From Nitrospirales bacterium (GTDB lineage: Bacteria > Nitrospirota > Nitrospiria > Nitrospirales > UBA8639): 33,529 nucleotides of DNA. The notes under the pieces are model-generated. The model was given only the letters and a program-made list of their open reading frames with translations, did no database searches and was not told where the DNA came from. The stretch is taken from positions 1 to 33,529 of the forward strand of contig BQIV01000046.1 in assembly GCA_021604005.1 (NCBI GenBank), given 5' to 3'. Position numbers and translations under genes: made by a program. Positions 5,811 to 25,071 of the stretch are shown here, piece after piece. Within the stretch, counting starts at the first letter, position 1. Every line of letters starts with the position of its first letter.

Positions 5811-7505
5811 ATGACCTCGGACAGTTCCTCAGGTTCCAAAGACTTTATTCGTACGCTGATTGCGCAAGATGTGAAGGCGGGAAAGCATGGAGGACGCGTA
5901 CATACGCGGTTTCCGCCGGAACCCAACGGCCATCTTCATATCGGTCATGCCAAGGCCATTTGTTTAAATTTTACTGTGGCAGAAGAACAGCACGGGCGCT
6001 ATAACCTCCGGTTCGATGATACCAATCCCAGCAAGGAACATGTCGATTATGTGACGTCGATCCAAGAAGATATCCGATGGTTGGGCTTTGATTGGGAAGA
6101 TCGATTATTTCACGCATCTGACTATTTTGAGCAATTGTACCAATTTGCGGTCAAACTCATTCGTGATGGAAATGCCTATGTTGACAGTTTATCGGCTGAC
6201 GAGATTCGTGCCAATCGAGGAACCTTAACCGAATCTGGGACGGACAGTCCGCATCGCATTCGTTCCGTTACCGAGAATCTTGACCTCTTCGCACGAATGC
6301 GTGCCGGAGAATTTGAGGATGGCGCGCATGTGCTTCGAGCCAAAATCGATATGACATCGCCCAATATCAATCTGCGCGATCCAACGCTTTATCGCATCCG
6401 CCGGGTACCCCATTATCGGGCCGGCAATGCTTGGAATATCTATCCAACGTATGATTTTGCTCACCCGCTCTCGGATTCACTCGAAGGCATTACACATTCC
6501 CTGTGTACGTTAGAGTTCCAGGATCATCGTCCGCTCTATGAATGGGTGTTGAACGCCTGTCAGGTTGACTGTCATTCGCAACAGATTGAGTTTGCGCGGC
6601 TCAACATGAATTATACCGTCATGAGTAAACGGAAGCTGCTGCAACTCGTCGATGAGGGGCATGTCTCAGGGTGGGACGATCCGCGCTTACTCACGCTAAA
6701 AGGATTGCGTCGTCGGGGCTACACGCCGGAATCTATTCGTACCTTTTGTGAACAAGTCGGAGTAGCCAAGCGTGACGGTATCATTGAAATGCCGGCATTG
6801 GAACATGCGATACGAGAAGATTTAAATCGACGGGCCTTTCGCGTGATGGCGGTGCTGCATCCCTTGAAAGTGATCATTGATAACTTTCCGGAAGGTCAGG
6901 TGGAAGACATGAATGCGGTGAACAATCCTGAAGATGCCGCTGCCGGTTCGCGGACCGTGCCTTTTTCTCGTGAACTCTATATTGAGCAGGATGACTTTCG
7001 TGAAGATCCACCCAAAAAGTTTTTCCGTATGACACCGGGACAAGAGGTTCGATTACGTTATGCCTATATCGTTCGGTGCGAGCGAGTTGTGAAGGATGAA
7101 CAAACCGGCGCAATTCTCGAAGTGCATTGTACCTACGACCCGGACACCCGAAGTGGAGGGCCGCAAGCCGGTCGAAAGGTCAAAGGCACGCTCCATTGGG
7201 TGTCAGCAGCACATGCGGTGTCAGCGGAAGTCAGGCTCTATGAATCCTTGTTTACGAAAGCCAACCCTGCTGAAGAGAAAAATGGTGTTGATTTTCGTTC
7301 GTATCTTAATCCTGATTCATTGCACATCTTACCGAATTGCCAAGTTGAGCCGAGTCTTGCTGATGCCAAGCCGGGAACGCCGTATCAATTTGAGCGGCAA
7401 GGTTATTTTTGTGTGGATTCTGATACGACAGCGGACAAGCTGGTGTTTAACCGTACCGTTGCCTTACGTGATTCTTGGGCCAAAATTGAGAAAAAATCGC
7501 AATGA
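5811..7505 (+). CDS. glnS: Glutaminyl-tRNA synthetase
   Basis: Class I aminoacyl-tRNA synthetase charging tRNA-Gln, 564 aa from the chosen start, close to E. coli GlnRS (554 aa). The HIGH motif is in [15 protein letters not shown] (residues 36-50) and the KMSKS-equivalent is VMSKR (270-274). The GlnRS-type context is [10 protein letters not shown] and, in the anticodon-binding half, the beta-barrel region with [16 protein letters not shown]. The GlnRS-type KMSKS variant and the C-terminal beta-barrels separate it from GltX. The presence of glnS implies direct glutaminylation of tRNA-Gln, although it does not exclude a GatCAB route elsewhere. It is divergent from ydbH. No operon partner is seen downstream. 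Confidence 0.97.
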
Positions 7506-7732
7506 TTTGTCAACACCAGGGGTACGTTATGTGGAGAAGTGCATGCTCGGAGTCTAACTTGGTATTGGGTTTCGAATATGGTTTCTCTTTCTCAAACTAT
7601 GGATGTGTTTGGCCAGCTATCTCATGGAAGTCATTGGCCATGCGTTGAGGGAAGGAAGAAGGGATTGAGGTTTTCTTTGTAGTGTGTCAAGATTTGTGAA
7701 GCACGGAGCACGAATTATCTTCTATTATCTGA

Positions 7733-7840
7733 AGGGCACCTCTAAAAACTAGGATTTTTTCGTGAGGGCAAGGAAGCTGTGCGCGCAAAACCGCAGTGTA
7801 TGAAAATACATGAGGAAAGGACGGTTTTTAGAGGCGCCCT
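7733..7840 (+). repeat. Hairpin-forming MITE-like intergenic repeat, copy 1 (internally deleted)
   Basis: A 108-bp element with 16-bp terminal inverted repeats: AGGGCACCTCTAAAAA at 7733-7748 and its complement with one mismatch at 7825-7840. An inner stem TGTAT/ATACA lies around a gaaa loop. It shares the terminal repeats and the internal block GAGGGCAAGGAAGC with copy 2 at 11935-12077, which is in the opposite orientation and about 35 bp longer. It has no coding capacity, so it is a non-autonomous element or a REP-like repeat. The two bases GA flank both ends, which could be a target duplication but may be chance. It lies 33 bp before the start of the DUF1579 gene. Confidence 0.85.
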
Positions 7841-7873
7841 GAAAAGAAACTTATGTTGCGAGAGGGTGTATTC

Positions 7874-8527
7874 ATGAAGTTATGTACGTCTCAACGGTCG
7901 GTCGGCGGGGTCGTGAGTGTCATCAGTCTCTGTCTTGTGTTTGCGAGCCTGTCGTATGCGTCAGATGGGCATGAGCCAACAGGATCGCACGGTACGCCGA
8001 TGGATCCTGCCATGAAAGCTATGATGGAAAAGTGGCAAGCGTATGCCTCGCCCAATGACAATCATGAAGTATTAAATCCCTTGGTGGGGACATGGAGTCA
8101 TGTGGTGAAATGGTGGATGAAGCCAGGAAGCGTTCCAGAGGTGTCGAAAGGTACGAGTGAAACGAAATGGTTGATGGGAGGGCGTTATCTCCAACATACC
8201 GCAACGGGAATGTCGATGGGGCAACCGTTTGAAGGAATGGGATTTACGGGGTTCGATAATAAGAAAAGAAAATACCAGACCATCTGGATGGATAATATGG
8301 GAACAGGCATAATGACCGGTGAAGGTACGTATGATCCCAGTCAAAAGACGTTAACCGATCATGGTCTGTATACGGATGCCTTGATGGGCCAGCGGGCTTA
8401 CCGTGGAGTCGTCACGATTATCGACGACAATCATCATAAATATGAGATGTACAGCTTAGACCAGTCTGGACAAGAATTCCGTATGATGGAAATCGTCTAC
8501 ATACGGACAAACGATCATGCGAAATGA
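7874..8527 (+). CDS. DUF1579 family secreted protein
   Basis: A 217-aa protein with a signal peptide (MKLCTSQRS, hydrophobic core, cleavage after SYA) and a DUF1579 domain. The domain opens with HEVLNPLVGTWSHVVKWWMK, then has KWLMGGRYLQHTATG and a GFTGFDNKKRKYQTIWMDN stretch, the usual family landmarks. DUF1579 proteins are small lipocalin-like beta-barrels of unknown function. The histidine- and methionine-rich stretch just after the signal peptide (HEPTGSHGTPMDPAMKAMM) could bind metal, but that is only a possibility. I chose ATG 7874 (GAGAGGG upstream) rather than the in-frame ATG at 7853, because it gives a clean signal peptide. It appears monocistronic, with a hairpin repeat directly upstream. 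Confidence 0.8.
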   Translation: MKLCTSQRSVGGVVSVISLCLVFASLSYASDGHEPTGSHGTPMDPAMKAMMEKWQAYASPNDNHEVLNPLVGTWSHVVKWWMKPGSVPEVSKGTSETKWLMGGRYLQHTATGMSMGQPFEGMGFTGFDNKKRKYQTIWMDNMGTGIMTGEGTYDPSQKTLTDHGLYTDALMGQRAYRGVVTIIDDNHHKYEMYSLDQSGQEFRMMEIVYIRTNDHAK

Positions 8528-9209
8528 TAAGCCTGGTGCTACGAATGTCATGGGTGGCACGAGCGTGCCATTCATGATGTACGTCTGACATCATGTTCCT
8601 ACCGAGTGCTTCTGTCTCCGTATAGCTGTTTTCCCCAATGCCCTCACTCTCTTGATTGCCTGTAATCCCTTCTATGGCAAACCCTATACGCTCTAAACAG
8701 CAACATACCATAAGCTCTGTGCCATATAATGTTTCAATACACGGAAGCTAGAGCCGTTCCGGTTCTCGTTTGCTCATACGACGTGTGTCGTTACGTTTTC
8801 TATGTGATGTCAATTTGGCTGAATGTCTGTATCCTTAAGGCATGTGATCCCACGTTTAATGTTCCCTGTCGGGAAGGAATGTGACGCGCCTGTAGCACCG
8901 GGATTTGCTTGACTCGTTTCGTAGACATGAGATGTCTATGAGGTTTGGAGCATTCCGATGTCATCTTTTTGACATGGAGCGTCAAGATCTAAATGGATAC
9001 AGGGAGTTATCTTTCCCGATACAGACCTGCAGCAGGACGATAGTCTAGGGGGCCATGAGGTTTGCCTCGTCTAATATATTGATTTTATGGATGAAAATCG
9101 TATGTATCGAGTCTTGCGTCATGAATGATTTCCATGGCATTGCGCTTGCTCTCTTAACAGGAAAAATGTGAATTCAAACTTATCACAATGTTAAGAGAGG
9201 ATCTCCGCA
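8528..9209. other. Gene-poor interval, 682 bp
   Basis: No convincing gene on either strand. Short frames on the minus strand lack ribosome-binding sites or family motifs. A 38-codon plus-strand frame from ATG 9055 is open but its G-run is too close to the start. One small inverted repeat, ATGTCA/TGACAT around TCTTTT (8958-8975), is visible. The last 60 bp should carry the promoter of the 79-aa gene. I see nothing else. Confidence 0.5.
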
Positions 9210-9449
9210 ATGCGAAACTTACTTGTAGAAAAAACAACGCAAGCTCCAGATACGTCTTACATGGGCATCCAGCCTATTGAGAATTCGGCACGTCTGCTTG
9301 GACTTGCCCAAGGGCTCGACCGGAAGCAGCGCTATGAGAAAATGGTTGAGAGTGTGTATGGAGAGCCTGACGCAGCGAACCGGTTGTTATTAAAGACTCT
9401 CTGTTTGTCGGCGATTGATGAATCTCACGTTGACTATACAGAAAATTAG
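9210..9449 (+). CDS. Small conserved-looking hypothetical protein (79 aa)
   Basis: A short soluble protein with no signal peptide, membrane segment or recognisable domain. It is predicted mostly helical, with a charged middle (GLDRKQRYEKMVESVYGEPDAANRL) and an acidic end. GAGAGG sits nine bases before the ATG, which is the main evidence that it is translated. Codon use resembles its neighbours. It is a monocistronic small gene between two large non-coding stretches. The function is unknown; I do not recognise the family. Confidence 0.55.
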   Translation: MRNLLVEKTTQAPDTSYMGIQPIENSARLLGLAQGLDRKQRYEKMVESVYGEPDAANRLLLKTLCLSAIDESHVDYTEN

Positions 9450-9935
9450 TGAACCGATGAGTCACGACAACCCTGCGTCTCGCTATGGGAATGATGATGT
9501 GTCTGATAGATGGAGATCTCTCCGTTCGGATCGTTGTATAGTGTTGTGCCGCGACGTATCGCGTGCGTCGTCGCGGCCTTGTTGCCGAGTGACTTTTCCT
9601 TCCTCTTCGTGCTCAATCCCTGTGTGTGAAGGGGTACTCTGAGCACCACCTGCCTCTGTTGCCTGCATTTTTAGCATTTTTTTAGAAATTGCCGATATAT
9701 GTATTGGGGGAGTATGTCCGAGTCGTACTTTCCTGTGAGATAGAGACTGTGTGCTGTAGATGTGTCACATTGTCTTTGACGTTTGCCGTGCAGGTCTTTG
9801 TCCTCTAGCCGTTCTATTTGGTTTCCGTAAGTATGATGTAGGTTCGTGCGCCGTCTCGACTCCCTGCGCCAGACACGTCAAATGGGGAGAGGCCAATTCG
9901 GCCAGGAGTTATTGGGTTCCCTATAGACGGGAAGA
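9450..9935. other. Gene-poor interval, 486 bp, with a GC-rich stem-loop
   Basis: Overlapping short frames occur on both strands, none with a start signal or recognisable product. A perfect 9-bp stem (GCCGCGACG / CGTCGCGGC, 9548-9556 and 9569-9577, 12-base loop) follows the 79-aa gene by about 100 bp. It lacks a T-tract, so intrinsic termination is doubtful. The remainder is the leader region of the TPR lipoprotein gene. Confidence 0.45.
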
Positions 9936-11843
9936 ATGCATGTGAACGCTTTATTCTGTCATAGATGGTCTTTTTTACTCTTCCTCAGTATAGTTTTTAC
10001 CTGGGGGTGTGCCGGAGACAAAGAACGCTGGGTCGTCAAGGGAACGACGCAACATTCAGCATTGAGCGATATTCCTGCCGCGTCCCCGTCCAACAATATT
10101 TCTGGAAACGAAGGGGGACAGGAGGCGTCTCTCCGTTCGTCTCATGTCCCGGACAATCAGAAGGATGATACCTTGACTGTACACCGAATGTTGAATGAGC
10201 GTACTGTGCCGTTACTGGGAATCGAACGTTCATTTGCACATGACCATACGAATGACCGTCAGATTGTTGCGGATGCAATGGAGCCGGGTGAACGTCCAGT
10301 CATTTCGATGCTGGAGCAAGATGGTGAACCACCTTCCTCGAGAGTCAACCCACAGCCTTTCAACAATGGGCGGAATGCTTCAGCGGCTTTCAGCGAACTT
10401 GAGTCGGCATTACGTCACGCGATCTCAGTGAACGAACGCTTAGACACTGAGGGTGTTGATGGAGAGATAATCACGACAGAAATACCCTCAGTGTATGAGA
10501 TTTCGCAAGTGCCGTTACCCGGTATCGAGGCTCTAGCCGTTCCGGGTTATGCATATGAAAGTGAGGCGGTCAGTAGCGAGCTGACATTGAATGTACGACA
10601 AGAAGAAGCATCAGTCTTGGTGAAGACGGAAAATCCTGCAGTGCTTCCTCTTGGTCATACCCTGAAGGAAGATTTGGCGAGCCATGATGAAAGAAAACCT
10701 GTATTTCAACAGGTGCCCGTTGACAATGCTCAATCCGGGACAGGAAAGACGCATGAAAGACGCATGCATGTGCCATTGCCTACGCAGTCTGTTCAACAGA
10801 GTCCGCATGATCATGTGGACTCTGAAGATGTGCTGATACAGAAATCGTCTAGCCAAGACTCGAAGTTGATACAAGCCCCTCTTGCCAATCAGTCTCACGC
10901 TTTTCCCAGTGTCATGATTCCTGAGGAAGGCATTGTGTCGGATGAGTCATCGTTGGATGACCGTGAATATGCAAGACGGCAAGAGCCGGACGATGAAGAG
11001 GCTATGCCGGGCATGCTTGCTGAGAACGACGTTTCGACAGAAAATGTTGTGTCAAAGGATTCGATTGCTGCATCGATCCTGGTGACGAATAATGAGTTGC
11101 CGGAGGTCCAAACGGAGCCATTACGCGACTCTCTAGAGACTGAGTCCGTGGTTGTCATGGCGGAGAACGAGAAACCCAAGAAGGTGTTAGAGAACAAGAA
11201 AGATATTGAAAACAGTATTCTTGCCAGCGATGCACCACGTTCATCTTTGGATGAACGTCCACAGACTCGGTCTCTTTACTCCTCGAAATTGAAGAAAGTG
11301 CAGGAACCGTCGGGACGCAATGGGGTCATCCCTAGTGATTCTTTGGATGCGCAACGCCATGACGTATGTCGACCGGGCCGTACTTCATTGCGTCAATCTC
11401 AGGCTCACAACATGCTGGCGGCAATTTCTCGATCAATTCAAACCTATTTACAGATGGACCTTCCTCAATCACAACATCCGAATTTGTTAGAATGTTTTCG
11501 GCAACGCGGGTTGATTTACTTTCAGCTTCGTGATCTGACGAACGCGCTTTCCGATATCAATCAAGTTCTTCGGACGGCACAAACGGAAGATATTCAACAG
11601 GCGCGGGATCTATTTTTTCGAGGGCGTGTGTATGCAAAGATGAATGCTTCCCGACCTGCGATAGATGATCTGACGAACGCTTTGGCGTTAGGTATGGACG
11701 GACATCGTCAAGCTCATGCCTATTACCTGCGTGGTTTGTCGCAGTTCCAGCTTCAGTTATTCGATTCCGGACTCAAGGACATAAGCATGAGTTGCCGGGC
11801 CAAATTTACTCAGGCCTGTCAATTGTTAGAAAAAGTAATGTGA
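9936..11843 (+). CDS. Lipoprotein-like protein with a long disordered middle and C-terminal TPR repeats
   Basis: A 635-aa protein. Residues 12-25 are a hydrophobic signal ending FTWGC, a divergent lipobox with Cys 25. Residues about 30-480 are acidic, Ser/Glu/Asp/Val-rich and lack globular patterns, so they are probably disordered. The C-terminal 150 residues hold about three TPR-like repeats, e.g. RQRGLIYFQLRDLTNALSD, FFRGRVYAKMNASRPAIDD and YYLRGLSQFQLQLFDSG. A plausible role is an envelope-anchored scaffold whose TPR end binds a partner across the periplasm. This is inference. The start is either ATG 9936 or the in-frame GTG 9942; GGGAAG upstream fits either imperfectly. I recognise no specific family beyond TPR. 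Confidence 0.7.
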   Translation: MHVNALFCHRWSFLLFLSIVFTWGCAGDKERWVVKGTTQHSALSDIPAASPSNNISGNEGGQEASLRSSHVPDNQKDDTLTVHRMLNERTVPLLGIERSFAHDHTNDRQIVADAMEPGERPVISMLEQDGEPPSSRVNPQPFNNGRNASAAFSELESALRHAISVNERLDTEGVDGEIITTEIPSVYEISQVPLPGIEALAVPGYAYESEAVSSELTLNVRQEEASVLVKTENPAVLPLGHTLKEDLASHDERKPVFQQVPVDNAQSGTGKTHERRMHVPLPTQSVQQSPHDHVDSEDVLIQKSSSQDSKLIQAPLANQSHAFPSVMIPEEGIVSDESSLDDREYARRQEPDDEEAMPGMLAENDVSTENVVSKDSIAASILVTNNELPEVQTEPLRDSLETESVVVMAENEKPKKVLENKKDIENSILASDAPRSSLDERPQTRSLYSSKLKKVQEPSGRNGVIPSDSLDAQRHDVCRPGRTSLRQSQAHNMLAAISRSIQTYLQMDLPQSQHPNLLECFRQRGLIYFQLRDLTNALSDINQVLRTAQTEDIQQARDLFFRGRVYAKMNASRPAIDDLTNALALGMDGHRQAHAYYLRGLSQFQLQLFDSGLKDISMSCRAKFTQACQLLEKVM

Positions 11844-12218
11844 AGGACAGTTTTGTGAGCATTTCTGTGAAAATCAGAGTTTTTGGTCGTACTTCTTGTT
11901 GCCTAGGCATAGAATATGCTTTGTAAATTCTTTGAGGGCACCTCTAAAAGCCGTCTTTTTCCGCGATGGCAGCGTCAGCCGCGTGCTCAAATCCTCATGT
12001 ATGCCTCTATACACTGCGGTTTTGCGCGCGCCGCTTCCTTGCCCTCACGAAAAAATCCTGGTTTTTAGAGGTGCCCTTGAAAAAGAGAGGGACTTTCCGG
12101 TGTACAAATGACGATCTACGGTATTACAATTATAAGAGAGCTGAAGAGTGTTCAAGCCCTGATTTGATTGTTCCGACAATACATATTGAAAGGCCAATGA
12201 ACTCGAAAGGCGAGGGCA
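11844..12218. other. Intergenic interval containing repeat copy 2
   Basis: 375 bp without a convincing gene. It contains the 143-bp hairpin repeat (11935-12077) and, after it, an AT-rich stretch (about 12100-12210) that may hold the promoter for the 42-aa protein. I could not assign clear -35/-10 boxes. Confidence 0.5.
11935..12077 (-). repeat. Hairpin-forming MITE-like intergenic repeat, copy 2 (full length, inverted)
   Basis: A 143-bp element with ends AGGGCACCTCTAAAA and TTTTTAGAGGTGCCCT. Read on the minus strand it matches copy 1 (7733-7840) through the terminal repeat, the block GAGGGCAAGGAAGC and the segment GCGCGCAAAACCGCAGTGTA. It also carries about 35 bp that copy 1 lacks. Its centre again forms a TGTAT/ATACA stem but with a different loop (agaggc), which suggests the fold is maintained. 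The dinucleotide TG flanks both ends. Confidence 0.85.
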
Positions 12219-12817: not shown

Positions 12818-15346
12818 ATGAGCAAGCTTATTGATGCATTGAACCGGCTGCAATCACTTCGATCCGATGATGATCTGACTGAGTTGGACTCACTCCAGAA
12901 TCCGACGGAGAACTTTCAGGCGGCGCTCGTCTCTGCCGAGGATGTCGAGATTTCTCCGGACTTGCCGCCTGACTTACACGACCCTATCCAGCAGGAGAAC
13001 GGCCACGCCGCAGTCTCCCTGGAAATTAATCAACATGCGTGGCTAGAGATTGTCCGGCGGGAGTACTTGCAAGGCTATGTCCGCGATGGTGGAGGGACGG
13101 TGAAGTTTGTCGTGTTGCCCGATGCCGACAGTCATAAATCGTTTTCCGATGTCTTAGGGGGCAATGCCCACGAAGACGAGTTCGTGTTTGCCAAAGTGGA
13201 CGCGAAATATACCAAAGCCCACATGGTGGATCGTGTGTTTCACAAAGTGGCCAAGCAATTGGATTGGGATGAGTTGGCCTATGAGTATGTGGTGCGATTG
13301 CTTATTGAACATGGCTATCACGTGCCATCGCAGCGAAAAGAATTCACGTTACACCACGTCGCGACGCTTAATGAACGGAAGGAACCGTTATTGCGGCGGG
13401 ATCTGCAAACCTGGCTGGAAGAAACGATTGAAGGCGATGCCAATCTGTGCCGTGAATTTCGGATGGCCATCATCCGGCTGTGTTTGGCGCAACTGGAAAG
13501 TGGCGAATCCGATCGTGTGTTAGGTAATGCGGTGAAAGAGTGGCTGTGCGGCGAACTTCGCTTGATCTCAGGCGTGAAGAAAGCCCTGATATTTCAGAAA
13601 ATCGTTCGTCATAATGCTCGTTATATGCTGTCGTCCTTGACGCACTGGCTCCGGCTTTCCGGAAAACGCGGACTCATCATTACCCTGGATATTTCACGGT
13701 ATCTTGTTGCCAAACGGCCTGCCGAGCCCGACCGGACGTTGTATTATAGTCCCACCGCCGTGCTTGATCTGTACGATATGCTTCGGCAATTTATCGATAC
13801 CTCCGACGAATTAGAAGGCTTCATGATGGTCGTGCAGGCTCCCCCAGAGTTTTTGACTGATCCCAAGCGAGGCGTTGACCGTTATGAGGCGTTGAAACAT
13901 CGTATTTGGGATGATGTGCGAGACAAGCATCGTCAGAACCCATTGGTCCCGCTCGTTCGATTATCGCCAACGTCTGCTTCTTTGGCGTCATTACCTGCTG
14001 GAGAAGCTGTTATATCTGTGACCGACAATGAAACCTTGATGGCCAGACGGGTTATTGAAGGTTTGCGTGCAGGGGTGCCCAATAGTCATGTTGTGAAGAC
14101 GTTAGGGTGTTCGCAAGGAGAAATTGAGTGGCGTTTCCGGCGTTTATTGGAAGGGACGCAACAGAATACTGCGACGGGTCAGTGTTCCAAGGGGCTCATT
14201 GTAGAAGGGAGTTTCGGAAGCGGAAAGTCCCATGTGTTGGAATATTTGCAACATGTCGCCTTAGAGTCGAACTTTATCTGTAGCCGAGTGGTCATTAGCA
14301 AGGAAACGCCGCTGTATCATCCTGTGCGCATGTTTCATGCTGCGGTTGAATCGGCTGTCATTCCCGATAAAAAAGGGGAATTGCTCTCGGAGATTGCGAG
14401 CCAGTGCGACTCGTGGGATCCGAAGTATAAAAGTTTGTCGACGTGGGTGAATAGCGTAGACAGTGGAATTGACCCGCGATTTGCGGCAACCCTGTTTCTG
14501 TATGAACGGATGGGCACGGATCAAGAGTTGGGGCATCGAATGACCCGATTTTGGACGGGCGATCCGCTGGGAGTCGGAGAACTCAAGAAGTATTTAAAAG
14601 AATGTGGCATTGCCGGACGTTATACGTTTGGGAAAATTTCACAGGCTGAACTTGCCTCGCAACGATTTCAATTTACGTCGCGTTTGGTCCAAGCGGCGGG
14701 GTATGCCGGGTGGATTGTGCTTGTCGATGAAGTCGAGGTTATGGGGCGTTATTCCGTTAATCAACGAGCCAAGTCCTATGCGGAATTGGCTCGATTGGTC
14801 GGTGGGCAAGATACGCGTAGCTATCCCGGCATTGGCGTGGTTGTCGCATTGACGGATGATTTCCAGAAAGAGGTGTTGGAGGGAAAAGGGGATATGGTGA
14901 AAATTCCTCAACGTCTCAGGGCTGTGTCATCGGACGAGAACATGACGTTAGCCGAACAGGCCGAAATAGGAATGAATCTGGTCGAGTCTCGACGAATTCC
15001 GATCGAAGCACCAACGGAACCATTGATTCAACAGACACATCACACCATTCGTACTCTTCATGTGCAAGCCCATAACTGGCGTGATTGGGATCATTCTGCG
15101 GTGGCCCCGCATATAGAGGTTCAAGCTGGAACCCGGATGCGGGAATATGTCAAAAGCTGGATCACAGAATTAGACTTGAAGCGTTTGACTCCTGATGAAG
15201 TTGTTGAAATTGAAGTGGATAATCTGAAGCCTCATTATGAAGAGGATCGCGTGTTAGCCACGGTGAGTCAGGATGACTCGAATCAGGCCAGTGTTGAAGG
15301 GCCTGAAGGGCCAGTCGAGTCTCCTGAAGGTCATGAAGCTTGTTAA
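12818..15346 (+). CDS. Tandem BrxC/BrxD-like P-loop ATPase (DUF2791-type), first module degenerate
   Basis: An 842-aa cytoplasmic protein with two modules that read like the BREX ATP-binding family (DUF2791). The second (about 440-750) is complete: Walker A GSFGSGKSH with Lys 470, then VVISKETPLYHP, and Walker B WIVLVDEVEVM with Asp 637/Glu 638, followed by RAKSYAELARLVGG. The first (about 70-410) follows the same order (GGGTVKFVV, then FVFAKVDAKY, later RHNARYMLSSLTHWLRLSG). However, the P-loop position reads PDADSHKS (Lys 107) and the Walker B position reads GLIITLDISRYL, with Asp 291 followed by Ile where Glu is expected. So it looks like a pseudo-ATPase fused to an active one. The first 65 residues are acidic and probably flexible; the C-terminal 25 are too. 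No PglZ, BrxA, BrxL or methyltransferase gene is nearby, so BREX function should not be assumed. The start at 12818 has only a weak ribosome-binding site. Confidence 0.7.
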   Translation: MSKLIDALNRLQSLRSDDDLTELDSLQNPTENFQAALVSAEDVEISPDLPPDLHDPIQQENGHAAVSLEINQHAWLEIVRREYLQGYVRDGGGTVKFVVLPDADSHKSFSDVLGGNAHEDEFVFAKVDAKYTKAHMVDRVFHKVAKQLDWDELAYEYVVRLLIEHGYHVPSQRKEFTLHHVATLNERKEPLLRRDLQTWLEETIEGDANLCREFRMAIIRLCLAQLESGESDRVLGNAVKEWLCGELRLISGVKKALIFQKIVRHNARYMLSSLTHWLRLSGKRGLIITLDISRYLVAKRPAEPDRTLYYSPTAVLDLYDMLRQFIDTSDELEGFMMVVQAPPEFLTDPKRGVDRYEALKHRIWDDVRDKHRQNPLVPLVRLSPTSASLASLPAGEAVISVTDNETLMARRVIEGLRAGVPNSHVVKTLGCSQGEIEWRFRRLLEGTQQNTATGQCSKGLIVEGSFGSGKSHVLEYLQHVALESNFICSRVVISKETPLYHPVRMFHAAVESAVIPDKKGELLSEIASQCDSWDPKYKSLSTWVNSVDSGIDPRFAATLFLYERMGTDQELGHRMTRFWTGDPLGVGELKKYLKECGIAGRYTFGKISQAELASQRFQFTSRLVQAAGYAGWIVLVDEVEVMGRYSVNQRAKSYAELARLVGGQDTRSYPGIGVVVALTDDFQKEVLEGKGDMVKIPQRLRAVSSDENMTLAEQAEIGMNLVESRRIPIEAPTEPLIQQTHHTIRTLHVQAHNWRDWDHSAVAPHIEVQAGTRMREYVKSWITELDLKRLTPDEVVEIEVDNLKPHYEEDRVLATVSQDDSNQASVEGPEGPVESPEGHEAC

Positions 15347-18172: not shown

Positions 18173-18946
18173 ATGTCTTTTTATAAAGGAAGTAAAATAA
18201 ACCAAATACTCAAAAAGTGGCCGCATAGTACGGTGGCAGTATTGTCATGGCTGGAAAAGCAGGGAGCTTATCAGCAACTGATGCGTGAGTATGAAAAGAC
18301 CTCATGGGTGAGGAGAGTTGGACGAGGGGCCTATGTCAGAGAAGGCGAGCAAGTCGAGTGGACAGGCGGACTGTATGCGCTTCAAGAACAATTAGGACTT
18401 CCCATACACATAGGTGGAAAAACCGCACTGTCATTTCAGGGATACGCGCATTTTTTTCCAATGGGAAAAAACATAACGGTCACGCTGTTTGGCTTTCCCA
18501 ATGTCAAACTTCCTCTGTGGTTCAAAGAGTATCGTTGGGAGGTCAAAATCCGATATACCACAACCAACCTGTTCATGAGCCGAGACAAACATGGCCTCAC
18601 ACAAAAAGATATGGGCTCCTATGACGTCAGACTGTCAACACCTGAGCGGGCTGTTATGGAGATGCTGTATGAGGTCCCACAACGAGAATCGTATGAAGAG
18701 GCCAAGCTCATAATGGAAGGGTTAACGACCTTACGCCCACGACTAGTTCAAGCGTTGCTTGAGGACTGCATGTCAGTAAAGGTCAAGCGCCTGTTCATGG
18801 TACTGGCCGAAACCTGCAAATACGCGTGGGTAAAAAAGCTTGACCTATCACAGGTGGCCTTTGGCAAAGGGAAGCGTATGTTAGTCAAAGGCGGACGGTT
18901 GAACCCTACATACCATATCACGGTGCCGAAGAATCAGATGGGTTGA
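18173..18946 (+). CDS. AbiEi family antitoxin / transcriptional regulator (type IV TA)
   Basis: A 257-aa protein of the AbiEi family. An N-terminal winged-helix region (about 1-60) contains VLSWLEKQGAYQQLMREYEK and WVRRVGRGAYV. It is followed by the AbiEi core with LPIHIGGKTALSFQGYAHF and VRLSTPERAVMEMLYEVPQ. In known systems AbiEi binds inverted repeats in its own promoter to repress the operon, and it counteracts the AbiEii nucleotidyltransferase without direct complex formation. Here the partner gene directly downstream carries a premature stop, so this may now be an antitoxin without a working toxin. The start ATG at 18173 has no SD but lies right after a good promoter. Composition is slightly more AT-rich than the neighbours, typical of transferred TA genes. 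Confidence 0.85.
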   Translation: MSFYKGSKINQILKKWPHSTVAVLSWLEKQGAYQQLMREYEKTSWVRRVGRGAYVREGEQVEWTGGLYALQEQLGLPIHIGGKTALSFQGYAHFFPMGKNITVTLFGFPNVKLPLWFKEYRWEVKIRYTTTNLFMSRDKHGLTQKDMGSYDVRLSTPERAVMEMLYEVPQRESYEEAKLIMEGLTTLRPRLVQALLEDCMSVKVKRLFMVLAETCKYAWVKKLDLSQVAFGKGKRMLVKGGRLNPTYHITVPKNQMG

Positions 18947-18966
18947 GCGGCGGCCGGAGTAAGGAC

Positions 18967-19887
18967 GTGAAAAAAAGCCCCTACTTCAAACAAGTGGAGT
19001 TAATTCTGCAAACAATTCCGCACATCGCAACGGAAACAAGCTTTGCGCTGAAAGGCGGAACCGCGATCAATCTCTTCGTGCGGGACATGCCATGACTGTC
19101 TGTGGATATTGACCTGGCCTATTTACCACGGGATGAGCCACGCGACACGGCTCTGAACAAGATCAGTGAGGCACTCCGCCGCATCGCTTCCACGCTAAAG
19201 AAAGCCATGCCTGGCGTCAAAACCCAGGAAAGTCGAGCACAAGAACCACAGCGGACCACAAAGCTGGTAGTGGCAAACAGCCAGACACGAATCAAAATCG
19301 AGCCGAACGAGGTGCTTCGAGGTTCGGTCTTTCCACCCGAAGAACGGGAGCTGACACCACGCGCGGAAGGCATGTTTGAGCGTTCGGTGACGGCATGTGT
19401 GCTTTCAACCCCGGATCTGTATGGTGGCAAGATCTGCGCAGCATTAGACCGCCAGCATCCACGGGATCTCTATGACGTAAAAGTTCTCCTTGAACAAGAA
19501 GGGTTGACGGATGAGATACGCAAAGCTTTTGTCGTCTATCTCGCCAGCCATGATCGGCCTATAAGCGAGCTGCTCGCCCCCACAAGGAAGGAGATACGGC
19601 AGATCTATGAACACGAGTTCGTCGGCATGACCATTGATACGGTCTCCTACGAAGATTTACTCGAAGCCAGAGCGCACCTCATTGCAACACTGAGGAAAGA
19701 ATTAACCGATGACGAGAAGACCTTTCTCCTTTCGCTCAAAAAAGGTCATCCAAACTGGAGCCTCCTGGGCGTCGAAGGAATAGAGAAGCTGCCAGCTGTA
19801 CAATGGAAATTGAAAAACATTCACAGCATGCACGAAAAGAAACATGCCGAGGCACTGGAAAAACTCAAAAAAGTTTTGGCGTATTGA
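18967..19887 (+). pseudogene. AbiEii nucleotidyltransferase toxin interrupted by an in-frame TGA
   Basis: The full frame runs from GTG 18967 (GGAG and AAGGA just upstream) to 19887, 306 codons, and is the usual second gene of an abiE pair, 20 bp after abiEi. Codons 1-42 give KKSPYFKQVELILQ and the nucleotidyltransferase motif FALKGGTAINLFVRDMP. Codon 43 (19093-19095) is TGA where the family has Arg (PRLSVDIDL), consistent with a CGA-to-TGA change. After it the same frame continues with LSVDIDLAY (the DxD catalytic pair) and later with DLYGGKICAALDRQHPRDL, the third conserved motif. Everything else is intact, so the lesion is recent. Without readthrough, the GG motif and the DxD motif end up on separate polypeptides, so the toxin should be dead. 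A start at GTG 19102 would give a 261-aa product lacking the GG motif. Confidence 0.85.
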
Positions 19888-20711: not shown

Positions 20712-23700
20712 TTATGATATTTCACGTTTGCAAGGAGATGATCCTTTTCGAACAACGGCCTCGTTAAATATGGAGAACCGGGAAGACATGTTGCTGGAAA
20801 GCGTGCGAATTTCCTTGACGATCAATGAATAGGTTTGAAATTCTTCCTCAATGACACCATCCAGAATGTATGGGCCATGATTGGTTAAGAGATGACCAAA
20901 CTGCCGGTACGTTTTCGGGAAAAACGTGGCTTCATACAATCCTGTTTTATCTTCAAAGGTCACGAATTCCATGGGTTCCTGGCGTTTCGTCTGAACGGAT
21001 TTTTCGGTGATCATCCAGCCGATCATCGTAATGGGTTGTCCAACATGCAGGTGTATGTCGCAGGCTGACACAGCATGTAACCCTTGAAGCGCTTCTTCAA
21101 ACAATTCGAGTGGATGTGTGTTGAGCGGGAATCCGAACAGTTCAATCTCATGTTGAATTTTTTGACTTGGAGCGTAATCTGGTGGAATGGGAAGCGCCGA
21201 TGAAACGTGAGGGGTGAGAAGTGAGGCGTGAAAATCTGAACCATGTGGGCCGGGTGAAACATGGGTGGAGTGAGTGTATGGCATGTGACGACTGAACCCT
21301 TGCTGTGCATGATGAGCATACAGGCGCCAGAGGAGGCCTGGACGTGTAACGTCTCCTGCAACACTATCGAAACATCCGGCTTTGATTAATGTCCGGGTGT
21401 GGGCTTGCTCTCCCTTCGTGCGGATCAGAAAATTCTGCAATGATCGAAATGGGCCATGTTGAGTTCGTTCCTTGAGAAGATGAGCGATCATATCGGCTTT
21501 CAGCCCTTTGATGTGCATGAAGCCCATGCGAAGGGTTTTGCCGATTCCCACATATTCCCAACAACTGGCATTGATGTCTGGCAGTACAATGGTCAATCCC
21601 ATACGACGGGTTTCCGAGAGATAGGCAAATGGAGAATAGAACCCGCCTTGATTGTTGAGCACGGCTGCCATGAATTCTGCGGGATAATAGGTTCGAAGGT
21701 AGGCGGATTGAAACGAGACTTGTGCATAGGATGCGGAATGAGGCTTACAGAAACTGTATCCCGCAAAACTCATGATCATGTTCCACATCGTGGCGATCGC
21801 CTGTTCCGACGCTCCGTTGGCGGCAGCTCCACGAGAGAATTGCACATGATAATCCTGGAGCTGTCGTTCCTTGTGCTTTTTACTCAGGATTTTTCTGAGT
21901 TGATCCGCATCTTCCACTGAAAAGCCTGCCACAGCCATCGCGACTCGTGTCACATCTTCCTGGTACACCATAATGCCGTGAGTGTCGGCTAACACTTTCT
22001 CGAACATCGGGTGAATCGGTTGATGTGTCTCACCATGGGCACGCAGCACGAAGCCCCGGTTGTAGGGGTTGCCTGCCGGACGAACGAGAGAGGACACCAT
22101 GACGACATAATCGAAAATATCGAGCGTTGATTGTCGTGTCTTGGTCATGGCTTTCCACAGTTTTCTCAGCAACAGACGCGTGGCGGGCGATTCGATATAA
22201 AAGCATCCGATCGTATCGGTCTGACGAATTAACTCTTGAGTCCGGGGATCATGAATAGGATCCCATGATGTGTGGGTAAGACGTCGTTCCGTATGAACCG
22301 CGACGGCATCAAGCGCATCTCGAATCACGGCGAGCGAACGATTCCCTAAAATGTCGAGTTTGACGAGGCCGGCATCTTCGGCTTGATCTTTTTCCCATTG
22401 GATAACGGGCACACCTTTGGGTGCAATTTGGATTGGGACATAACGTTGAATCTCACCCGGAGCGATGATGACTCCGCCACAATGAACGCCGAGATGTTGC
22501 AAGCATCCTTTGAGGCGGAGTGCGACAGAGAGTATTTCCGGCCATGGTTCAGCTATTCCGATGGCTTGGCAAATGTTCTCTGCCCAGGAGCGTAACGTGT
22601 GGGTTGCCGGAGAGGGATGGAATGCTGTCTGACGTACAAGTCGTGGCATCAATCGATTGAGTTCGGCTGGAGCCATGCCGTACACCTTGGCGACCTCGCG
22701 AATTGCCGCGCGGAAGCCAAGCGTGTTGTGGTTGGCCACCATGGCGGTTTGACGAGTGCCGTATTTTGCGAAGATATAATCCAGAATACGATCCCGTTCA
22801 TCCCACGGAAAGTCAATGTCGATGTCTGGCGGATCTTGTCGTCCGGCATTCAAAAACCGTTCAAAAAACAAGTTATGACGAATCGGGTCGACATGCGTGA
22901 CGCCTAGGCAATAGGAGACGATGGAGGCGGCCGCCGACCCCCGGCCACATGTACGTGGCGCTTGCTGGACGATGTCTTCGACGATTAAGAACCACATGGC
23001 AAATCCTTTTGAACGAATCACGTCCAGTTCAGTCTCGATTCGTGTTCGGACTTCATCGGAAATTTTCCCGTATCGTTGTCGGGCGCCTTCGTATGTTTTG
23101 GCTTGGAGGGTGGAAAATGTTTGTGGATCTGTTCGGTCACGAAAGGCTTGCTGCATTCGAGCCTTGAAATTCCATTCGGTGTGGCAGCGGTCGGCAAGAC
23201 GACTGGCGTTGAGCAGTGCATGCGGAATATGCACATAGTGCGGTTCCAGAGCTGAAACCGGGGCAAGCCATTGGTGACGGGAACAGTGAGCGTCTGGCGG
23301 CAGTTGAGACAGCGTGGTTTTCAAGGCAATGGCGCGTAACGCACGATGAAGATGAAAACCTTTAGCATCAACAAAATGCACGCGATTGGTTGCGACTGGG
23401 GGAATCCCTGTCCGCCGGCTCAATGCCACGGCTTGATGCATCATGACTCCCGGTGTCAATTCAACATAGAGATTGTGCCGTTTTCGCTTTTTCCATGCTG
23501 TCAGAGCGGGAATATCATCGGACAAAACAAGAAGATCCCGATAATGCTGGCTCACGGTTTCAATGAAATCAAAGTCATCATGACAGTGCCGGGCCGACAG
23601 GATGCGACAGAGGTTTGTATAGCCAGTCATGGTCGTTGCGAGTAATGTGGCTCGGTGATGCTGGTGAGTAAGCTCAGCCCCGAGAATCGGTTTGAGCCCT

Positions 23701-23873
23701 GCCCGCTTGGCTGTTTCCACGAATCGAACAGCGCCATATAGGCCATTGGTGTCGGTGAGTGCGAGCGTGTCGGCTCCATGAGACTTGGCCGTAGCACACA
23801 ACTCCTCCAATGAAGACACCCCGGACATGGGTGAATAATTAGAATGGACGTGCAGATGAACGAAGGGTGGCAT
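20712..23873 (-). CDS. dnaE2: DnaE-type (DnaE2-like, error-prone) DNA polymerase III alpha subunit
   Basis: A C-family replicative-type polymerase of 1,053 aa from the chosen start. Domains in order: PHP (HLHVHSNYSPMSG at 6-18); palm with the catalytic PDIDIDF (Asp 352 and 354) and the third Asp in LVKLDILGNRSL (Asp 507); the helix-hairpin-helix region near FSVEDADQLRKILSKKHK; and a C-terminal OB fold (MIGWMITEKSVQ ... MEFVTFEDKTGLYEATFFP). All polymerase carboxylates are present. Coupling with an inactive Y-family polymerase identifies it as the mutasome DnaE rather than the main replicase. Its ATG at 23873 lies inside the 3' end of imuB (35-nt overlap) after a G-rich site, giving translational coupling. 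The frame is open 18 codons further up, but those lie deeper in imuB and look unlikely. Confidence 0.9.
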   Translation of the reverse strand: MPPFVHLHVHSNYSPMSGVSSLEELCATAKSHGADTLALTDTNGLYGAVRFVETAKRAGLKPILGAELTHQHHRATLLATTMTGYTNLCRILSARHCHDDFDFIETVSQHYRDLLVLSDDIPALTAWKKRKRHNLYVELTPGVMMHQAVALSRRTGIPPVATNRVHFVDAKGFHLHRALRAIALKTTLSQLPPDAHCSRHQWLAPVSALEPHYVHIPHALLNASRLADRCHTEWNFKARMQQAFRDRTDPQTFSTLQAKTYEGARQRYGKISDEVRTRIETELDVIRSKGFAMWFLIVEDIVQQAPRTCGRGSAAASIVSYCLGVTHVDPIRHNLFFERFLNAGRQDPPDIDIDFPWDERDRILDYIFAKYGTRQTAMVANHNTLGFRAAIREVAKVYGMAPAELNRLMPRLVRQTAFHPSPATHTLRSWAENICQAIGIAEPWPEILSVALRLKGCLQHLGVHCGGVIIAPGEIQRYVPIQIAPKGVPVIQWEKDQAEDAGLVKLDILGNRSLAVIRDALDAVAVHTERRLTHTSWDPIHDPRTQELIRQTDTIGCFYIESPATRLLLRKLWKAMTKTRQSTLDIFDYVVMVSSLVRPAGNPYNRGFVLRAHGETHQPIHPMFEKVLADTHGIMVYQEDVTRVAMAVAGFSVEDADQLRKILSKKHKERQLQDYHVQFSRGAAANGASEQAIATMWNMIMSFAGYSFCKPHSASYAQVSFQSAYLRTYYPAEFMAAVLNNQGGFYSPFAYLSETRRMGLTIVLPDINASCWEYVGIGKTLRMGFMHIKGLKADMIAHLLKERTQHGPFRSLQNFLIRTKGEQAHTRTLIKAGCFDSVAGDVTRPGLLWRLYAHHAQQGFSRHMPYTHSTHVSPGPHGSDFHASLLTPHVSSALPIPPDYAPSQKIQHEIELFGFPLNTHPLELFEEALQGLHAVSACDIHLHVGQPITMIGWMITEKSVQTKRQEPMEFVTFEDKTGLYEATFFPKTYRQFGHLLTNHGPYILDGVIEEEFQTYSLIVKEIRTLSSNMSSRFSIFNEAVVRKGSSPCKREIS

Positions 23874-25071
23874 GTGTGTTCCCCCACCAAATCGCTTGTG
23901 CCCCGAATCGTGCTCGAATCTGATCAAGGGCCAGTGTTAAGCGGTGTGATTTTTTTTGTACAAAAGGTTCTGGAATGAGTGCTTCTTGAAATAGTTCGCC
24001 TTGCTCGATGAATGTGGTGAGGTGTTCCGCGTGTATGGCGAGGCGACTGATTCGGACCCGGCGTTTGAACATTCGTGCAAGCAGCGTTGTGGCATAGGGG
24101 AACAGGTCCACTTCCCAGTAGGTTCCCGGTGTCACGGCGTGCGCTTTCGCCATTTCTATTCCGTCACGATACTGAAATTCGACTCTGATCGCGTGGCACA
24201 TTCGTTGTTGATGCCGTAACTGCCGACAGACTTCTTCGAGGAGCCCATACAACGCACTATGGAGTCGATGGATATCGATGTCATCGGAATCGAGTTTCAT
24301 GGTCGCTTCAATCTGTGGTTGTTGGGGTGGGCAGAGAACGGGGGATGAGTCTGTGCCATGTGCCCAGGCATGCAGGGACCGGGCATGTTGTCCCAGTACT
24401 ATTTCAAGGTGGGCGAGTTCAATGTCTGCAAGATCGTGTAATGTCTGGATATTCAAATCAGACAATAACGGCAAGATTATCTTCGTATGATGGGGGCTAA
24501 ACGGTAAGGTCTGAATGGGAAGTGGTGCCAGAAAGGCTTCTTCAGAGCCATGATGAATGTCGCACAGGCGTGGAGGCGTGACGACTGTTGATGCAATCCG
24601 TGCGACGAGTTTGTTGCTGGCCAATCCGGCAACTCCCACGAGTCCATATTGCTGTGCGATGTCTCGTTTAATTCGCATGGTGGCATCACAGGCCAATCCA
24701 AAGAGACGTGTGGTGCCGGTCAGATCAAAAAAGAACTGACCAGGTTGAATCGGTTCCCACACTGGGGAATATTGCCGGATGGTGTTTACGAGTGCATGGT
24801 GAGCTTGCCGAACTTGAGCGCGACGTGGAGGCAGAATGTGGAGCGACGGACATTGCTGACGAGCCTGTGCGACAGAGAGGCCAGGCAAGACGCCGTCTTG
24901 CTGGGCTTCTTGTGACACTTCAGTAATGGGTGCTCGAGCGGCTGGTGAAACCGAAACAGCAACCGGCCGTGTTTGTAATGAAGAGTCGTCTAGGCGCGCG
25001 AGAGCGATGGAAAACGTGGGAATAGAAAAGCAGGCAATATGACGATCCATCGTTCGAGCAAGCCCTTTCAT
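23839..25071 (-). CDS. imuB: ImuB-like, catalytically inactive Y-family polymerase
   Basis: A 410-aa DinB/UmuC-like protein. The fold is evident from YSPVWEPI...FFFDLTGT (102-120), VAGLASNKLVARIAS (147-161), the helix-hairpin-helix part LLSDLNIQTLHDLADI and the tail LTLALDQIRARFG (378-390). The catalytic acids are gone: the motif expected as VDMDAFF reads FSIPTF (16-18 are Ser-Ile-Pro), and SLDEAYLD reads QPGQFFFD (Gly 111 and Gln 112 replace Asp and Glu). ImuB proteins are known to be inactive hubs that bind the sliding clamp, ImuA and DnaE2. QGELF (357-361) in the little-finger position could be the clamp-binding peptide. There is no imuA upstream. The start at 25071 has no clear SD; an in-frame ATG at 25050 is an alternative. 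Confidence 0.85.
   Translation of the reverse strand: MKGLARTMDRHIACFSIPTFSIALARLDDSSLQTRPVAVSVSPAARAPITEVSQEAQQDGVLPGLSVAQARQQCPSLHILPPRRAQVRQAHHALVNTIRQYSPVWEPIQPGQFFFDLTGTTRLFGLACDATMRIKRDIAQQYGLVGVAGLASNKLVARIASTVVTPPRLCDIHHGSEEAFLAPLPIQTLPFSPHHTKIILPLLSDLNIQTLHDLADIELAHLEIVLGQHARSLHAWAHGTDSSPVLCPPQQPQIEATMKLDSDDIDIHRLHSALYGLLEEVCRQLRHQQRMCHAIRVEFQYRDGIEMAKAHAVTPGTYWEVDLFPYATTLLARMFKRRVRISRLAIHAEHLTTFIEQGELFQEALIPEPFVQKKSHRLTLALDQIRARFGAQAIWWGNTHATLRSSARPF

Follow-up and report, generated by a model that had tools for sequence, protein, structure and literature searches.

An inverted pair of hairpin repeats bounds a 4.3-kb block of genes in this Nitrospirales genome, and the locus raises the question of whether the two repeats form a unit with the block, able to invert or mobilise it as a first sequence-only reading had proposed, or arrived there separately, and what kind of element they are. 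The window analysed here, a stretch of 33,529 nucleotides, is the entire contig C46 of a 4.7-Mb assembly in 92 contigs. The inverted repeat pair was borne out, the best arms (7732-7801 and 12009-12078) extending over 70 nt with 96% complementarity, and both copies have the edges GGGC...GCCC, in opposite orientation. That copy 1 is the shorter by about 35 bp was also correct (106 bp from GGGC to GCCC, as compared with 141 bp in copy 2), and in the alignment this 35-bp deletion takes out the greater part of one inner-stem arm. The idea that the two copies form the same inner stem with a different loop stood only in part: the outer stem made by the terminal inverted repeats and the apical TGTAT/ATACA are kept in both, but the inner fold of copy 1 differs. 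The features are collected in Table 1.

Table 1. Features of the two MITE copies and of the block between them, in window positions
Feature	Positions	Strand	Description and basis
MITE copy 1	7734..7839	+	106 bp, 35-bp internal deletion, core on + strand; end-motif search and alignment with 21 other copies
MITE copy 2	11936..12076	-	141 bp, full length, core on - strand; end-motif search, blastn, alignment
Copy 1 left target-site duplication	7730..7733		TGAA
Copy 1 right target-site duplication	7840..7843		TGAA
Copy 2 left target-site duplication	11932..11935		TTGA
Copy 2 right target-site duplication	12077..12080		TTGA
Copy 2 left terminal inverted repeat	11936..11949	+	GGGCACCTCTAAAA; 14 nt matching the ends of an IS5-type element
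Copy 2 right terminal inverted repeat	12061..12076	-	16 nt; compared with the IS in G011 and G003
Copy 1 truncated core hairpin	7766..7831	+	covariance model R1, 37.4 bits
Copy 2 core hairpin	11972..12044	-	73 nt; covariance model R1, 102.1 bits; covariation over 40 cores
Block between the copies	7853..11843	+	DUF1579 gene, 79-aa ORF, TPR-like gene; order and strand as in congeners

Copies of the repeat are numerous in the genome. A search of the 4.7 Mb for the end motif AGGGCACCTCTAAAA, allowing up to two mismatches, gives 88 matches against 10 for a reversed-pattern control, and blastn with copy 2 gives 21 near-full-length places (∼137-144 bp, too short for a transposase gene) besides copy 1 and partial matches, so that the further copies for which a search had been suggested are present. 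Inverted arms are found at both window copies, and the ends align over 22 copies. The genome also holds eight variants of ∼325 bp, which have the outer 65 and 55 nt in common with the short copies and, instead of the core hairpin's apex, carry ∼206 nt of other, self-folding sequence (e.g. L057:1240-1565). The two-base flanks GA and TG, which had been taken as repeated on each side of the copies, proved to be the middle of 4-bp target-site duplications, TGAA/TGAA and TTGA/TTGA. Across the family an exact 4-bp duplication flanks 14 of the 22 short and 4 of the 8 long copies (27/462 and 6/56, respectively, in a control with mispaired flanks); its absence at 8 of the 22 short copies is counted against the MITE explanation. 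A 2-bp target duplication was considered and rejected, since the middle dinucleotide agrees at 18/22 copies, yet all four bases agree at 14/22. The exact flank matches, and the loss of the 4-bp signal when the edge is shifted, define GGGC/GCCC as the edge and 4 bp as the length of the duplication. The suggestion of mobile repeats was likewise supported, and relatives have empty sites: once the element and one duplication are left out, both window sites align with G003 and G004.

Beyond these genomes, copy 2 had no match in collections of plasmid, phage and E. coli genomes (blastn for E. coli), and an exact 19-mer was found in none of the viral contigs searched. No promoter-like or terminator-like match lies within either copy, and a promoter or terminator role was rejected: promoter-like matches over 7450-12200 are below the shuffle mean, with none inside the copies. 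A 99-bp element in another genome (L156:440-538, on G017:C87) has terminal inverted repeats identical to those of the MITE around an unrelated interior, which suggests that an element needs no more than these ends to be mobile.

A candidate partner is an insertion sequence (IS) of ∼1.25 kb with matching ends, which is present on G003:C106 and G011:C45. The 16-nt end of the MITE agrees with one end of this IS at 16/16 positions in G011 and at 15/16 in G003, and the G003 transposase scores 280 bits with the IS5-family model NF033581 (cut-off 140) and is above cut-off with Pfam DUF772 and DDE_Tnp_1. This IS with the 16-bp ends of the MITE encodes an IS5-family transposase, whereas the MITE has the ends only and no transposase. 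The alignment between the two is confined to the ends, and the MITE was rejected as a simple deletion derivative of this IS. As the MITE and the IS have only their ends in common, movement of the MITEs by the transposase of this IS is an inference, and a different IS with such ends may have been the source. In such a mechanism a transposase acting in trans would recognise the ∼16-bp ends (GGGCACCTCTAAAAAC) of the MITE and move it, leaving a 4-bp duplication, a likely source being the ∼1.25-kb IS of the sister species, of which a fragment remains in the MITE-bearing genome itself. There the transposase search gave four weaker or partial matches, and the search with IS DNA gave the one fragment (C24:62196-62333); neither search found an intact partner IS in this genome, which is counted against the MITE explanation, as is the finding that G003 carries the IS but has 0 matches to the core.

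More unexpectedly, the 73-nt centre of the MITE recurs in bacteria of a second phylum, within small elements that have quite different ends. An exact 21-mer of the centre occurs in 21 stretches in a collection of 84,980 species, 20 of them belonging to three MAGs that bear the titles Nitrospirae, Nitrospirales or Nitrospinota and the remaining one to the gammaproteobacterium IMCC1989, in which the element holding the 21-mer has ends that differ from those of the window MITE. With a covariance model of the core (R1), built from 28 cores, we found 22 matches in the genome of the window, 44 in G017, 19 each in G010 and G002, and 5 in G001; the search of G003 and G004 found no core. Counting genomes at E<=0.001 per genome (the E-values are rough, and ∼0.4 chance genomes are expected per set), 73/369 sampled genomes of the Gammaproteobacteria, the class of IMCC1989, and 20/395 sampled genomes of the window's own phylum, Nitrospirota, match the model, for the most part within elements of ∼120-150 bp that have differing terminal repeats. 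Two elements of the gammaproteobacterial type also matched plasmid records, L246 three and L249 two; phage and E. coli records gave no match to L246. The core was traced to named carriers in plasmid records from Pseudomonas veronii, Halomonas sp. PA16-9 and Candidatus Fukatsuia symbiotica. Many of the 44 matches in G017 (MAG B83T1B8) have identical scores and several lie at contig ends, perhaps the trace of a recent burst by which the assembly was also broken up.

We aligned 40 cores (30 from gammaproteobacteria and 10 from Nitrospirota, one further Nitrospirota core being left out) using MAFFT without the model structure, and 17 of the 21 stem pairs show two-sided compensatory change. Paired cells make up 89.2% against 67.7% after shuffling, a measure that favours the tested structure because this was derived from those sequences, having been named by eye on the same 40 rows, a point counted against the explanation. 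Cells with two-sided change number 193 against 62.6 in the shuffles, and the covariation score is 0.558 against 0.183, and at most 0.102 with the partners slid by 1-3 columns. None of 500 shuffles reaches any of the structure measures, although such shuffle counts are not probabilities because the rows are related. A further short helix was kept out of the 21-pair count because two subtypes are out of register in its columns, and was tallied separately after moving one gap. The compensatory changes in this alignment indicate that the pairing of the core is maintained. As to the strand, G-U pairs on the modelled strand outnumber A-C mismatches, which are G-U on the other strand, by 27 to 11 without two near-constant columns and by 62 to 31 with these columns included. 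Codirectional neighbouring genes oppose the modelled strand at 14 of 18 sites elsewhere and at 6 of 11 in the genome of the window (by crude ORF calls), and neighbour orientation therefore gives no support for a co-transcribed, cis-acting RNA of the modelled strand.

The sequences that bracket the core are, in contrast to its fold, variable. From 45 loci, three of which were skipped for short flanks, 42 were measured; an inverted repeat brackets the core in 32 of these (shuffle p<=0.01), and its sequence differs between loci, for example GGGCACCTCTAAAAAT, CAGGCTGTTGAAAAA, TAGACCTCTTTCC and GTAACTGCTCAGGT. At the 42 measured loci the elements are 115-150 bp long. Duplications of 4 bases were read by eye at L237, L249, L250, L251 and L257; many gammaproteobacterial elements read in the same way have none, which is counted against the explanation. 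In eight gammaproteobacterial genomes, none of the 30 transposase loci examined bears a pair of the local ends (there were 64 DDE_Tnp_1 matches in total, the other 34 mostly in G338), and this too is counted against the explanation. The core looks like a structure-conserved module, so far undescribed, that is common to MITEs with exchangeable ends.

Our reading, to which we assign a probability of roughly 85%, is that copies 1 and 2 were inserted independently of each other and that each is a non-autonomous IS5-type MITE, the centre of which is a structure-conserved hairpin module found in differently ended MITEs of Gammaproteobacteria and Nitrospirota. The window pair itself is an ordinary MITE pair. 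What the module does is a more tentative matter. Most likely, the folded core would work in single-stranded form, as RNA or DNA, to help the element persist or spread whichever transposase moves it, a proposal to which we give somewhat less than an even chance. Slightly less probable is the broader view of the 73-nt core as a widespread, undescribed structured module (RNA or single-stranded DNA) with its own selectable function for MITEs, one that would pass between transposon systems by way of new ends and be carried by many unrelated transposases in Gammaproteobacteria and Nitrospirota.

Two other histories of the core can be weighed against this reading. The core could be the original mobile unit, or a captured module, around which terminal repeats were gained several times from different insertion sequences. 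One core with many unrelated ends fits such a history, as does the 99-bp element with these terminal inverted repeats around a different interior. However, across the 42 measured loci, ten of them without a significant arm, the core sits close to the centre of elements that are alike in length, and we regard repeated gain of ends as unlikely. Just as unlikely, in our judgement, is a single old MITE lineage with ends that drifted as its transposases changed and a palindrome that stayed paired through template switching between the arms rather than selection. The ends of many families are indeed loosely alike, and quasi-palindromes are known to undergo arm-to-arm correction. Yet several mismatches and a bulged A persist in most of the 40 cores, although arm correction should erase them, and conserved departures from pairing such as this bulged A and purine-rich internal loops argue against simple correction of one arm by the other.

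The remaining alternative concerns the block between the copies. The DUF1579 gene, the 79-aa ORF and the TPR-like gene are present in it as first described, although the TPR matches are under the Pfam curated cut-offs. A single inversion predicts the flanks TGAA/TCAA and TTCA/TTGA, whereas those seen are TGAA/TGAA and TTGA/TTGA. A composite unit, in turn, predicts one duplication outside the pair, whereas each copy has its own; the outer flanks, TGAA at copy 1 and TTGA at copy 2, differ, and a composite transposon was rejected. As far as the genes can be placed, four congeners (G001-G004) have them in the same order and orientation: GlnRS-DUF1579-(79 aa)-TPR is found on G003:C114 with order and strand unchanged; G004 has the genes split between two contigs, one of which carries DUF1579 and TPR on a single strand; and in G001 and G002 TPR follows GlnRS on the same strand, with DUF1579 not nearby. 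Flipping of the 4.3-kb block by recombination between its inverted flanking copies, or its movement by the two as a composite unit, is thus very improbable, for although 70-nt arms with 96% complementarity, 4.2 kb apart, are in principle of sufficient length to recombine homologously on occasion, one inversion would break duplications that are intact at both copies (an even number of inversions is compatible with them), and order and strand are equal in congeners without the copies. Hence, the inversion and the mobilisation proposed by the sequence-only reading both fall away. Because the copies are separate insertions of a small non-autonomous transposon, the block has not been flipped or moved by them; it is an ordinary inherited neighbourhood that lies outside the element.

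Some further features of the window were seen alongside. The probable start of the DUF1579 ORF is 7874 (ATGAAG) rather than 7853, since the alignment with congeners begins there and a GAGAGGG box immediately precedes it; this start is ∼34 nt downstream of the end of copy 1. Downstream of copy 2, at 12818-15346, is the gene for an 842-aa protein with a match to a BrxC/BrxD ATP-binding domain, which is also found in G001 and G002. An AbiEi/AbiEii-type toxin-antitoxin pair is encoded, by Pfam matches, at 18173-19887, and on the minus strand at 20712-25071 a DnaE-type polymerase adjoins an ImuB-like Y-family protein, an arrangement that resembles a mutagenesis cassette.

Imperfect palindromic intergenic repeats of roughly 30-160 bp are familiar from the ERIC, Correia/NEMIS and REP families, each of which has its own fixed ends or sequence. 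The window MITE is likewise imperfectly palindromic and intergenic, and it is set apart from these families, by description, through their fixed ends or sequence. Bacterial MITEs, in the parts of PMC10969869 that describe them, are IS-derived or IS-moved, noncoding and intergenic, with terminal inverted repeats, direct repeats and a stable fold, and the window MITE is like them in all of these features, in being short and in its presumed mobilisation by an IS. It differs in having an interior that is found across phyla with its pairing kept while the ends vary, a case not described in those parts of the source (PMC10969869). Compared by description, another likeness is QMITE2 of Coxiella burnetii, which the relevant passages of PMC5896051 present as an imperfect palindrome of 150-190 bp with a conserved core and large and small versions, and with relatives reported from another class; the imperfect palindrome, the two size versions, the conserved core and the relatives in another class are all features of the window MITE. 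In the same passages, however, the direct repeats of QMITE2 are 7-11 nt, as compared with 4 in the window MITE, and it is associated with IS1111 as the target of that IS, unlike the window MITE (PMC5896051). The window has no match in Rfam 15 at the gathering score, ten core-bearing loci have none at E<=1, and searches of an open-licence library gave no relevant description of the core, a weak absence given that most subscription journals are outside it. As far as these tools show, a core with exchangeable ends is undescribed.

MITEs are usually treated as remnants left by deletion within an IS, with an interior that is free to drift. In the elements considered here, the interior keeps its pairing across two phyla, and it is the ends, which the transposase needs, that are the variable part. 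If selection holds the core, then the module has some activity to which small elements owe their success, and a profile of the core would annotate many intergenic repeats that at present carry no label.
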